Source: a virus. From it: 24,400 nucleotides of DNA. Below are positions 12,489 through 24,400 of the stretch, in pieces. The translations under genes and the position numbers were made by a program. How positions within the stretch are numbered: position 1 is the stretch's first letter; every line of letters starts with the position of its first letter. The notes below the pieces were generated by a model. That model was not told the DNA's origin and searched no databases. It saw nothing but the letters and a program-made list of their open reading frames with translations. Location: the IMG/VR virus record IMGVR_UViG_3300005857_000014, positions 1-24,400 of that record. The stretch is one strand, 5' to 3'.

Positions 12489-14423
12489 ATGCCACAAATA
12501 CAGACTAAAACACAACCCACAACAAGAACGCAACCAACAAAAACAAGTACACCTGCAGTTGCTCCTTTTACTCCGGCTCCTGCTTCTGTTACTGCTTCGG
12601 GAGTTTATCAAAGACTTGAGAGTGCAATAAAGGACTTTTTCAAGGGATTGGCTACGGCATTAGTAACAGCTCAACAGGTAAAGCCCACTGCAACAATTCA
12701 TCAGGCCTTTATGACATATGCTACCAGTGCTGCTCCCAGAGTTGGTGGAGGAACTCCTCCTCCAGTTACTCGTCCTACAACTCCTCCCGGGACATTTCAA
12801 GTAGCTTCGCAATATATAGCTCCTTTAACTTCTCCTTTGCAGGCTATTGTGGGCCCGGCTACCAAACAATATGAGGAACTTAAAAAGCGTCAGGAGCTAG
12901 AATCACAATTTACACCTGCAACTCCTGGTAGGGTGATGCGGGCCGAATTGTATTTGCAATCCTTGCAGAAACAAAAACAACAACAAGCAAAGCAGGCACA
13001 GGCTCAGCCAACATCTCAGGTTGTCGTTACTCAGCCCACATCTCAAGTTCCAAAAACAACAGGAGCAACACAGACTGAAGGAACCCGGGGCAAGACAAAA
13101 ATCGAACCCATAACTGGTGCTACAACGCAGACATGGGCTGGAACAGTTTCTCAAATGGATATTATGCAATCACCTTTTGCTCAGGATGTTTTTAATTTGC
13201 TGCAACAGACAGCACGGCCAGAAGCTCCAACAATTACCAATGTTCCTCCAGGAGCGGAAATCCAAATCTTTAGGGATCCTCTAGGAGGTTCCACTCCATT
13301 CTTTGGGCATATCATACAGCCAGGTGAGACGCTCACTAAAATAGCTCAAAAATATGGTGTTTCCATTGACGACATTTTGAGGCTCAATAGGGACAGAACA
13401 GATGCGATAAAGAGCAGGGATTTAATAATCGCTGGAAAAGAGATAAGAATTCCTGTGGTTCAAAAAGAGTTACAACAACCAGCTTTGTTAGGACAGAAAT
13501 TCACCTCTGCGGACGAGATAAACCAGAAGGCAAGAGAAAATCTTCAACTTCCTCAACCTCAAATAAACGAAAATAGGCTTAACCAGCTTATTTTAGAGAA
13601 GACAGGAGTGGATCTTTCAGGGGTTGATACCGCTTTTAATAGATTAGTGCAATTAAGCGATCCTAATTTCTATGTTAATCAATATAATCAATTGCTTGAA
13701 AGAACCGGAATTTTAAAAGATATACAGGCATTAGCGGATTTGAGAAGTATTATGGAGAGGACGAAACAGGATGTTTTGGAAGAAGCAGCGAAGGTGGGAG
13801 GTTTAGTTACAGAAAGCCAAGTTGCTGAAGTTGTTAATTTTAGGCATGGAATATTGAAAGCTCAATATGAAGCTCTTGCAGATGCCATAGAAGCCAAAGA
13901 AAGGTTGATTGATAGGATAATGAAATATACCGCTATGGACAGAAAATTTATAGCAAATATATTAGAGAAGCAATTGAATCTTGAACAGTGGAAAGTAAAG
14001 TTAGCGATGGATTCTGTTAAATGGGATTTTAATGCTCAAAAGGAATTGATGAATAGAAATCTTAAAAAGCTCGAAGGATATGTTAAAGGTGGTCAATTGC
14101 ATACCGCTTCACCTGATTTGCTTTATCATTTTATCGATCCAGAAAGTCCGTTGTATGCTGGTATTACCGTTGATGAGTTGAGGCTCTATATTAGGATGTC
14201 ACAAGAGGCGGCACGTCAAAGGGAATTGAAGGAATTGAGGGCAAAGCAATTGATTCAGAAGACATTGGAGGATATGCAAAGAGCACGAGCTAAAGAGGCA
14301 AGGGCTTGGGCTAAAGAAATGAGAGAAAGGGAATTGCATCCATTGAGAAAGAAAATATTGGAAAAAAGATTAGAAAAATTGATTAAAGAAACTGAAGAAA
14401 CATTAGATCCCGAAACATTCTAA
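12489..14423 (+). CDS. LysM-domain virion protein
   Basis: The 644-residue protein has a low-complexity Thr/Pro/Gln/Ala-rich N-terminus (about 1-215). A LysM domain follows (about 274-324: HIIQPGETLTKIAQKYGVSI, NRDRTDAIKSRDLIIAGKEIRIP). The rest is a long helical/coiled-coil part (about 370-644) with a very basic and acidic end. LysM binds peptidoglycan or chitin glycan chains. Placed before a giant internal protein, it may be an internal or tail protein that contacts the cell wall during DNA delivery. No lytic catalytic domain is visible. It starts 1 nt after the previous stop (TAAaATG). Confidence 0.7.
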   Translation: MPQIQTKTQPTTRTQPTKTSTPAVAPFTPAPASVTASGVYQRLESAIKDFFKGLATALVTAQQVKPTATIHQAFMTYATSAAPRVGGGTPPPVTRPTTPPGTFQVASQYIAPLTSPLQAIVGPATKQYEELKKRQELESQFTPATPGRVMRAELYLQSLQKQKQQQAKQAQAQPTSQVVVTQPTSQVPKTTGATQTEGTRGKTKIEPITGATTQTWAGTVSQMDIMQSPFAQDVFNLLQQTARPEAPTITNVPPGAEIQIFRDPLGGSTPFFGHIIQPGETLTKIAQKYGVSIDDILRLNRDRTDAIKSRDLIIAGKEIRIPVVQKELQQPALLGQKFTSADEINQKARENLQLPQPQINENRLNQLILEKTGVDLSGVDTAFNRLVQLSDPNFYVNQYNQLLERTGILKDIQALADLRSIMERTKQDVLEEAAKVGGLVTESQVAEVVNFRHGILKAQYEALADAIEAKERLIDRIMKYTAMDRKFIANILEKQLNLEQWKVKLAMDSVKWDFNAQKELMNRNLKKLEGYVKGGQLHTASPDLLYHFIDPESPLYAGITVDELRLYIRMSQEAARQRELKELRAKQLIQKTLEDMQRARAKEARAWAKEMRERELHPLRKKILEKRLEKLIKETEETLDPETF

Positions 14424-21529: not shown

Positions 21530-22477
21530 ATGCCCTTTAATCATAATCTAAAACCAGGAATAGATTTACCAGTATATCAGTGGTTAAGATTTATGCCTGC
21601 TTCATCATCACATGGTTCTTGTATGTGCAATGATGAAAGAGGTACTGATAGATTTATTTATTTTATTTTTTCCGCAAATTCGTTTTGGAGATATGATACT
21701 TGGAGCGATAGTTGGCAACAATTAGCAAGTCCACCATCATTTAATTTTGGCCCTGGAACTGCAATGGTTTTTGATCCATCAAGGGGTTCACAAGGCTATA
21801 TTTGGTTATTTGGCCCCCTATCTTCATCTCCATTTGCCATTTTTGCCTATTATGATATCGCAAATAATAGTTGGACCTCAAGAGCAGCTCCTTCGGGATT
21901 ATCAGGACAATGGGGTACTGATGCAGCCTTGGTTCATACCTGTTCTTCATATAATTCTTCGGGAAACGATGATTACATTTATTTGATAGGGAACAACTCA
22001 ACAACCTTTTATAGATATTCCATTTCTACAAATACTTGGACTACTTTAGCGGCACTTCCAGCGGGAGCGGGAACTGGTTGCGCAATACATTGGGATTTTG
22101 GACCAGGAGGGGATGCGGATAAATTGTATGTTATAAGAGGAGCTGGAACTTCTACAATTTTTAGGTATTCGATTTCATCAAATTCTTGGACTACTATAAC
22201 TTACAGGCCCGCAACTGAAACATTTACTACGGGAACAGTTTCCGCTTATGATCCTGTTAGAAGAAGGATTTGGATAGAAAAAGATAATACCCACAGAATG
22301 TTTTATCTTGAATTGGGAACCTTAACTATGTTTCCAGGTGGAGTTTGGCCCTTTTCCGCAGGTTCAGCAGTAGTAGGTGACGGATTGTGCTATGTAAAAA
22401 CTCCTGATGGGGCTGAGTATCTTTATTTCAGAAGACATTCGGCAAATGAATTTTGGAGAACCTTAATTTTCTTATAA
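21530..22477 (+). CDS. Kelch-like beta-propeller adhesin
   Basis: The 315-residue protein has recurring Kelch-type blades, each pairing an aromatic strand with Y-x(3)-N/D-x-W: FWRYDTWSDSWQQLASPP, FAYYDIANNSWTSRAAPSG, FYRYSISTNTWTTLAALPAG and FRYSISSNSWTTITYRPA. A last blade ends FWRTLIFL and resembles the first, which would close the ring. Five to six blades can be counted. Kelch propellers are protein- or glycan-binding platforms. After the fibre genes, this is probably a receptor-binding tip or accessory. No signal peptide is visible. Confidence 0.75.
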   Translation: MPFNHNLKPGIDLPVYQWLRFMPASSSHGSCMCNDERGTDRFIYFIFSANSFWRYDTWSDSWQQLASPPSFNFGPGTAMVFDPSRGSQGYIWLFGPLSSSPFAIFAYYDIANNSWTSRAAPSGLSGQWGTDAALVHTCSSYNSSGNDDYIYLIGNNSTTFYRYSISTNTWTTLAALPAGAGTGCAIHWDFGPGGDADKLYVIRGAGTSTIFRYSISSNSWTTITYRPATETFTTGTVSAYDPVRRRIWIEKDNTHRMFYLELGTLTMFPGGVWPFSAGSAVVGDGLCYVKTPDGAEYLYFRRHSANEFWRTLIFL

Positions 22478-22494: not shown

Positions 22495-24400
22495 ATGTGG
22501 AAATTTCTCAAAAATTTTTTGAAAAAAGAACAGTTTGGTTACGGCTGGTTAGGAGACGAAAAAGAATACCTTGACGAAAGAAATTATCATACGGAGGAAA
22601 TCTTTAAATCCTATCCCTCTCCTAATTGGATTGAAAAAAGGCCATCTGAATGGAGAAGATTCGAACCTATTAGAAATCAGTCGACTAGCGCTTCCTGTTT
22701 TCACGGTTCTGTTTTAGTTCTAACAGAAGATTTTTCATATAAACCCATTAGCGAAATAGAAGTGGGAGATTATGTTTTTACCCACATAGGAAAGAAAAGA
22801 AGGGTTGTAGAAACATTTAAAAGAAAATGGCAAGGAGTAACCTATAAAATAAAAGTTTTTGGCATTCCTTACGAAATAGAAGTTACAAAAGAACATCCAT
22901 TTTTAACAGACAAAGGATGGAAACAAGCTAAAGATTTGTCAACATCTGATTATATTGCCATTCCTACTCTGATTGATTATGTAGAAGATAAAACTATTTA
23001 TCATTTTGAAAAAGACCCAGATTTTTTATGGGTTTTGGGAATGTATTTAGCCGAAGGTAGTTTAAGAGAATATAGCGTTCATTTTACTCTTTCAAAGTTA
23101 GAATTAGATAAAGCAAAAAAAATTCAGAATATTATGAAAAAATTTGGTGGGAAAGTAGATATTTACTGGCAAAAAGCAAGACCCTCTGTATTAAATGTTA
23201 TTTTGTGGGGTAAAAAGTGGAAAAACATTTTTCAAGAGCTGGGAGGAGAATATTGTGATAAAAAAAGAATTAACAAAAGATTAATGAGTTTAGAACCATC
23301 TTTGCAATGGCAGATTTTTAAAGGATGGGAGGACGGAGATGGTTATTTCGATACTAAAAAAAGCAGGCATATAATTGTTACGACATCAGAAGAACTTGCT
23401 TGGCAGATGTATCATATTGCCTTACGAAATAAAATTGGTGCTAATCTTCAAAAAAGAAAAACTCCAGAATGGAAAAAACCCGTTTTTGTTCTTGATTACA
23501 CATTTCCTCTTAAGGGGCGCAAATCTAATTATAGGAAGTTTTTTTCTCCAGATTATAGATATTTATTTACAAAAATAGTTTCCATAAAGAAAAATCCTGC
23601 TTATAGGGGTCATCACGTTTATAATTTAGAAGTTGAAGAGGACCACACTTATTTGGTTTATTCATTAGCGGTTCATAACTGCGTTGCACATTCATTGGCT
23701 CTTGCTCTTGGAATTGAAAACTATTTAGAAGAAGGAAAATTTGAGATTTTATCGGCAAGATTTATTTATTCTCGTGGCTATGTAGAAGCAACAGGAGGAG
23801 GAATGTATTATCTTCAAGCTTTGGAAATTGCTAGAAAAGAAGGAACCTGTTTAGAACAGCAAATGCCCTCTTTGGGTTTAGGCGAAGACGATATGAGAAA
23901 AAGAGATGATGAAACTCCAAATATAAGATGGGTGGCCCAGATTTACAAAGCAAATTCTTATGTTTTCCTTCCCCTGGACATAGATATAGTAGCTGGCATT
24001 ATAGAGCAAACAAAAAAGGGAATTCTTTTAGGAACGAGGTTTAACCAAGGAGGATTTGCCAAACCGGAAGTAGTCTTGGACAAAAATGGAATATACGGAC
24101 ACGCAATTGTAGCAACAGATTACACTATTTACAAAGGCAAAAAAGCGTTGATTTTTCAGAACTCCTGGTCCAGAGACAGCTGGGGCATCAACGGACTGGG
24201 AATAATCACTGAAGAACAGTTTAAAAACGGAGTTGTTTTGGCGGCATACCTTATCGATTTCAAATACGAACCACAAAAGACCAATAAGCCAAAGTTAGTT
24301 ATCAATGCAAGAAGCCTAAAAGTTGGAGATAGGGGCGGTGATGTTGTCAAATTACAAGTTGGTCTTCAGTGGCTTGGATATTTTCCTGTAAATCAAGAGT
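22495..24400 (+). CDS. Papain-like cell-wall hydrolase with intein at the catalytic Cys (partial)
   Basis: The frame is open from ATG 22495 to the right edge (635 codons, no stop). The host protein is a papain-family (C1A-like) cysteine peptidase: RNQSTSAS before the intein joins CVAHSLALALG after it, recreating Q-x(n)-S-C-x-A-x-S. H536 lies in YGHAIVATDY and N556 in FQNSWSRDSWGINGLG, completing Cys-His-Asn. From about residue 600, LKVGDRGGDVVKLQVGLQWL is the start of a PG_binding_1 peptidoglycan-binding domain, cut by the window end. It is probably an endolysin or virion peptidase cleaving cell-wall peptides. The catalytic cysteine (C396 of the precursor) is also the intein's +1 residue, so the enzyme should be inactive until splicing. 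No signal peptide is seen. A leaderless promoter precedes it. Confidence 0.9.
   Translation, partial: MWKFLKNFLKKEQFGYGWLGDEKEYLDERNYHTEEIFKSYPSPNWIEKRPSEWRRFEPIRNQSTSASCFHGSVLVLTEDFSYKPISEIEVGDYVFTHIGKKRRVVETFKRKWQGVTYKIKVFGIPYEIEVTKEHPFLTDKGWKQAKDLSTSDYIAIPTLIDYVEDKTIYHFEKDPDFLWVLGMYLAEGSLREYSVHFTLSKLELDKAKKIQNIMKKFGGKVDIYWQKARPSVLNVILWGKKWKNIFQELGGEYCDKKRINKRLMSLEPSLQWQIFKGWEDGDGYFDTKKSRHIIVTTSEELAWQMYHIALRNKIGANLQKRKTPEWKKPVFVLDYTFPLKGRKSNYRKFFSPDYRYLFTKIVSIKKNPAYRGHHVYNLEVEEDHTYLVYSLAVHNCVAHSLALALGIENYLEEGKFEILSARFIYSRGYVEATGGGMYYLQALEIARKEGTCLEQQMPSLGLGEDDMRKRDDETPNIRWVAQIYKANSYVFLPLDIDIVAGIIEQTKKGILLGTRFNQGGFAKPEVVLDKNGIYGHAIVATDYTIYKGKKALIFQNSWSRDSWGINGLGIITEEQFKNGVVLAAYLIDFKYEPQKTNKPKLVINARSLKVGDRGGDVVKLQVGLQWLGYFPVNQE
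22696..23679 (+). mobile_element. Intein (328 aa) with LAGLIDADG homing endonuclease
   Basis: The intein runs from C68 to N395 of the precursor. The N-terminal block is CFHGSVLVLTEDFSYKPISE with IEVGDYVFTH. Block B is VTKEHPFLT with T131 and H134 (TxxH). Two endonuclease dodecapeptide-like motifs, WVLGMYLAEGS (about 179-189) and FKGWEDGDGYFD (275-286), carry acidic E187 and D280/D282. The C-terminal block is HVYNLEVEEDHTYLVYSLAVHN followed by +1 Cys. Penultimate His, terminal Asn, first Cys and +1 Cys are all present, so class-1 splicing should work. The intact motifs argue that both splicing and homing functions are under selection or the intein arrived recently. Confidence 0.95.

Follow-up and report, generated by a model that had tools for sequence, protein, structure and literature searches.

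A LAGLIDADG intein at the predicted catalytic cysteine of a papain-like phage peptidase

In a fragment of a tailed-phage genome, a mobile LAGLIDADG intein interrupts a papain-like peptidase gene at the codon of its predicted catalytic Cys, and it is probable (roughly 80%) that the enzyme is made as an intein-locked, inactive precursor, that it acts on the cell envelope at lysis, and that the intein is kept by homing. The window, i.e., the whole stretch of DNA analysed, is the entire IMG/VR record IMGVR_UViG_3300005857_000014, a linear fragment of 24,400 bp with phage genes for a terminase, a portal protein, a major head protein and an internal-virion-protein-like product. It further encodes a Kelch-repeat beta-propeller protein directly 5' of the peptidase (21530-22477, Pfam Kelch) and a 644-aa, probably virion-associated protein with a LysM domain (12489-14423, 7.6e-11).

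The precursor and its intein

The last open reading frame of the window is confirmed to consist of an N-extein, a class 1 LAGLIDADG intein and a papain-like C-extein (Table 1). Within the precursor, Pfam matches were obtained to Intein_splicing (PF14890, 4.9e-14, above cut-off) and to LAGLIDADG_3 (PF14528, 4.2e-8), and of the NCBIfam splice-region models intein_Nterm begins at residue 68 while intein_Cterm ends at residue 396. The element thus combines the features of a class 1 LAGLIDADG intein, namely C68, TxxH, H394-N395, C396, a Hint profile, both LAGLIDADG acids and its precise absence in homologues. The initial annotation had listed a complete set of intein blocks (C1, TxxH, two LAGLIDADG motifs, the terminal HN and the +1 Cys) and a length of about 328 residues; every residue named is correct, with Pfam and NCBIfam in agreement, and 328 aa (38.9 kDa) indeed lie between C68 and N395. 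On the basis of these residues we infer protein splicing by the canonical class 1 route, in which the intein would be excised by C68, the His of TxxH, N395 and C396. An AlphaFold model of the precursor is of low confidence within the Hint domain (mean pLDDT 59, with most of the splicing domain at pLDDT <50), and no structural conclusion is drawn from it.

Table 1. Coordinates of the precursor, its predicted functional residues (window positions) and SLT-like small open reading frames of related phages
Feature	Position	Strand	Basis or remark
Precursor ORF, papain-like peptidase split by intein	22495..24399	+	635 codons; incomplete, runs open (>24399) into the contig end
N-extein, 67 codons, C-terminal end RNQSTSAS	22495..22695	+	Alignment to L002
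Gln62, papain oxyanion-hole Gln position, 6 residues upstream of the catalytic Cys	in N-extein
Intein, 328 codons, class 1 type with LAGLIDADG endonuclease domain	22696..23679	+	Pfam, NCBIfam boundaries, exact absence in homologues
Block B TxxH, T131-H134	22885..22896	+
LAGLIDADG motif 1, VLGMYLAEG, residues 180-188, acid E187	23032..23058	+
LAGLIDADG motif 2, FKGWEDGDG, residues 275-283, acid D282	23317..23343	+
Intein-terminal His394-Asn395	23674..23679	+
C-extein, remainder of papain-like domain and start of PG-binding domain; begins CVAHSLA	23680..24399	+
Cys396, +1 extein residue, predicted catalytic nucleophile	23680..23682	+	Invariant column, cathepsin/Procerain B profile match
His536, predicted catalytic His (GHAI)	24100..24102	+
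Asn556, predicted catalytic Asn (NSW)	24160..24162	+	Asp in several distant relatives
PG_binding_1 start, cut by contig end	24331..24399	+	Alignment to L002 residues 285-342
SLT-like small ORF	L093:839-1297	-	Motif
SLT-like small ORFs	L096:8924-9373; L099:10916-11470		Motif
SLT-like small ORFs	G001 contig C4 31224-31637 (L103); contig C5 21300-21770 (L105)		Motif

The peptidase and its probable role at lysis

The ligated extein matches Peptidase_C1 (PF00112) with 4.4e-6, above the curated cut-off, the match being weaker in some relatives, and it contains the active-site set Gln62, C396, H536 and N556, of which the latter two had been placed correctly in the initial annotation. There are ten intein-free homologues, 31-86% identical to the window extein. 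The closest, on the 41.7 kb phage contig L002, is 86% identical, and its alignment, which had been proposed as a check, is free of gaps across the extein junction; the other nine (about 31-80%) come from viral contigs as well as from Parcubacteria and WOR-3 MAG contigs. In all ten, Cys68 and His208 (L002 numbering) are invariant and the third residue is Asn or Asp. A profile of the family retrieved papain-family structures from the PDB (Procerain B, 8.9e-12, and cathepsin K), and an AlphaFold model of the L002 protein (pLDDT 74) was matched by Foldseek to papain-fold proteases with a probability of 1.00 and a TM-score of 0.74 by target length. Because of the invariant Cys and His, the profile match and the modelled papain fold, the +1 Cys of the intein junction is predicted to be the papain catalytic Cys, which agrees with the nucleophile role first proposed for it. 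With the papain family (MEROPS C1A, e.g., cathepsin K, Procerain B and the bacterial xylellain 3ois) the peptidase shares the Gln, Cys, His, Asn site and the fold, but it differs by its C-terminal PG_binding_1 domain, by being phage-encoded and by being interrupted by an intein.

The intein divides the protein where the active-site helix begins. The precursor would be translated with this helix split, and upon excision C396 would serve the ligated peptidase as its catalytic Cys. Since C396 must leave the intein to take up its catalytic position, no activity is expected of the precursor until it is spliced, as had been suggested at the outset and as position and modelled fold support; it would thus be an obligatory inactive form, locked by the intein.

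A PG_binding_1 match is present in all ten intein-free family members scanned (in L016 below the Pfam cut-off), and the domain is complete in L002 (PF01471, 1e-16). The peptidoglycan-binding domain originally assigned to the peptidase is thereby borne out in the relative, although only its start lies inside the window, because the contig covers 307 of the about 349 extein residues. Open reading frames near the peptidase match holin PHROGs in L002, L015 and L012, and small hydrophobic ones are located directly 3' of it in L008, in the phage of L017 and in both MAG contigs; the holin-like neighbour is known from these relatives, the window ending short of that position. This neighbourhood supports a lysis-cassette setting, and in conjunction with the PG_binding_1 domain it supports, but does not prove, a lysis role, with the envelope of the host cell as the most likely target of the ligated enzyme at lysis.

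However, enzymes of the C1A family usually cut proteins and are, to our knowledge, not established as peptidoglycan hydrolases, so that the peptidase might instead be a virion-associated or envelope-protein protease (directed, e.g., at S-layer or pilus proteins) encoded in the late region and not an endolysin. The hydropathy profile, which reveals no transmembrane segment in the peptidase, would fit such an enzyme as well. In addition, related phages carry small open reading frames, mostly with one N-terminal hydrophobic segment, which display a CESS-type SLT-like motif; their likeness to lytic transglycosylases is by motif only, and two of them gave no match when scanned against Pfam. Such a membrane-anchored product is a candidate second wall enzyme and could be the muramidase, and because related phages carry it the peptidase need not be their sole endolysin. 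Considering that PG_binding_1 is found across the family and that a holin-like neighbour occurs in several phages, we regard a protease of this kind as unlikely, albeit a serious alternative, and the label of endolysin given in the initial annotation as plausible but unproven.

Across the window, G381, G382 and contigs C4 and C5 of G001, identity of the peptidase gene is 77-89%, whereas the remaining genes of these phages share only 22-65% or are unrelated. Two pairs are exceptions, namely the close relatives G381 and G382, and the window and G001 contig C4. This contig belongs to an intein-free phage related to that of the window, with identities of 81% for the head protein, 58% for the portal protein and 52% for the terminase. 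As its conservation greatly exceeds that of the other genes, the peptidase gene appears to move between phages, which suggests exchange of this putative lysis gene within one host group. The hosts are probably Parcubacteria according to metagenome binning, as two phage-like contigs were assigned to one Parcubacteria MAG and one more contig to another.

Inteins at the catalytic motifs of phage peptidases

Over its first 211 residues the peptidase of L003 shares 89% identity with the window extein, yet it has no intein at the Cys. It carries instead an intein of 357 aa, only 29% identical to that of the window, with the junctions GHAI|CFHPD..AVHN|CATDY, which starts 3 residues past the equivalent of His536 and thus directly after the catalytic-His motif. 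L017 has an intact intein 46-50% identical to the window intein at the equivalent Cys (YQNGVPK|C..HN|CVAEAY), whereas its exteins are only about 20% identical to those of the window; homology to this diverged papain-like peptidase was established by profile comparison (E = 9e-8). Scanning with the C-terminal splice junction yielded L107 and L108, which represent a third family of peptidases; their N-terminus is Tat-like, and an intein interrupts them at QEIGD|C..HN|CVAH. In L107 (2606-5791) one peptidase even contains two inteins, one at the Cys motif and one after NSWG, the catalytic-Asn motif, of which the second ends in GN|S without the penultimate His. The intein-free L127 and L128, 62-64% identical, show no gap at either site. 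Here, assignment to C1A rests on the QEIGDC, His and NSWG motifs and on weak profile scores (PF00112 0.04-0.19, best PDB profile match 0.06).

Taken together, three further phage peptidases (L017, L107 and L108) from two other families have an intein at the same Cys, and occupancy amounts to four cases at the Cys motif, one at the His motif (L003) and one at the Asn motif (L107). Judged by motif, all three catalytic motifs are hence occupied somewhere among phage papain-like peptidases, and the predicted active site is a hot spot for inteins. Scans for close relatives with the L003 intein and with the L017 peptidase each retrieved the query alone, and among patescibacterial inteins related to that of the window, which reside in SufB-like, IscU-like and other cellular genes, no peptidase host was seen.

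Persistence of the intein and comparison with known systems

Since both LAGLIDADG acids are retained, homing of the window intein into intein-free relatives, as had been envisaged for its putative endonuclease, is plausible in principle. However, active homing into the nearest intein-free alleles is not supported, because the 40 bp around the insertion site are only 55-62% identical there (22-25/40); for comparison, a site identity of 75% was given for one pair in a study of mycobacteriophages (PMC5050341). Synonymous differences near the Cys codon were raised (11/17 versus 102/229 in comparison with L002) but not significantly so (Fisher p = 0.13 and 0.19), and co-conversion at the insertion site is not claimed. 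Patchy occupancy and the presence of different inteins at different motifs fit selfish homing elements, and the intein would be kept by homing together with the difficulty of precise loss from an invariant active-site motif, not by regulation of lysis.

Alternatively, the intein might serve as a regulatory lock of a zymogen, with slow or conditional splicing in response to temperature or redox state timing the activation of the peptidase. That the intein sits on the very catalytic residue, and that in L107 two of the catalytic motifs are occupied, would suit such a device, as would the fact that the nucleophiles of intein and extein are both Cys, and for mycobacterial DnaB inteins conditional splicing is documented (PMC6195587, PMC7360933). 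On the other hand, intein-free alleles are in the majority (10/12 in the peptidase family, including the phage peptidase 86% identical to that of the window), the inteins retain their endonuclease domains, and different inteins at different motifs in different phages are to be expected of parasites and not of one regulatory device. We therefore consider regulation by the intein improbable, and the idea put forward at first that splicing times lysis is unsupported, as most close relatives lack an intein. It is likewise quite doubtful that the catalytic motifs of phage papain-like peptidases form a general intein trap in which some phages use the intein as a lock on the zymogen before lysis.

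The intein has a G + C content of 31% as compared to 36-39% in the exteins and for this reason looks foreign, in line with a degenerate element that no longer splices and leaves the gene inactive; yet this is very unlikely in view of the intact frame, in which neither a splicing residue nor a LAGLIDADG acid is missing, and of the equally intact L017 intein at the same site. An assembly artefact fusing two genes, conceivable for one metagenomic contig, can practically be dismissed, since the junction is exact, in frame and located at an invariant Cys, and since the independent contigs L017, L107 and L108 share this architecture.

Inteins at a catalytic Cys already exist in phages. In the thymidylate synthase of Aeromonas phage PS1 (TP|CFVAG..THN|CHFSF) and in C5-methyltransferases (Lactobacillus phage Nyseid, MG765276; L133, FGFP|C..HN|CQDISVAG; L030, GGTP|C..HN|CQSYSIAG), the +1 Cys is by motif likewise the catalytic nucleophile; these hosts, however, act in nucleotide metabolism and DNA modification, respectively, and are neither lysis genes nor proteases. 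Mycobacteriophage inteins are found in TerL, RecB, RDF, TOPRIM, ThyX and other proteins and resemble the window intein in lying next to active-site motifs, in their patchy distribution and in their homing endonucleases (PMC5050341). The intein hosts named among 841 mycobacteriophage genomes include no lysin or peptidase, 11 inteins being in hypothetical proteins (PMC5050341), and a set of 224 mycobacteriophage endolysins is reported to lack both introns and inteins (PMC3314691). Along with the fact that the open-access literature searched yielded no phage lysis peptidase with an intein, this bears out the initial impression that such a host is uncommon, and a papain-like peptidase appears to be a new one.

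Mobile homing elements as such are familiar from phage lysis genes in the form of group I introns in lysin genes, which act by RNA-level and not by protein splicing. While the phage intein hosts named in the sources are mostly DNA, nucleotide or packaging proteins, the lysis-region peptidase would extend these hosts to a new class. That three catalytic motifs of a single enzyme superfamily were hit separately, two of them in L107, illustrates with unusual clarity how inteins follow the conservation of active sites. With natural intein-locked proteases one could examine directly whether a lethal late function can be gated by splicing, and such proteins are candidate tools for producing proteases as inactive precursors.

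Two candidates were discarded: PHROG 36001, matched by several of the open reading frames described here, as a peptidase family, its similarity being to inteins that in annotated phages lie inside methyltransferases and other enzymes, and a 710-aa open reading frame of G382, at first suspected to hold an intein, which is a C-terminal domain fusion. The L002 phage (record G381) has a further intein in its terminase large subunit (L093:11613-14345), at GRGHR|C..SHN|CSVV beside the Walker B strand, which is absent from the terminase of its close relative G382, where Thr occupies the +1 position. Finally, a patescibacterial IscU/NifU-like protein (L071, G187:C20) carries an intein at GNPI|C..HN|CGDVM, likewise at a functional Cys.
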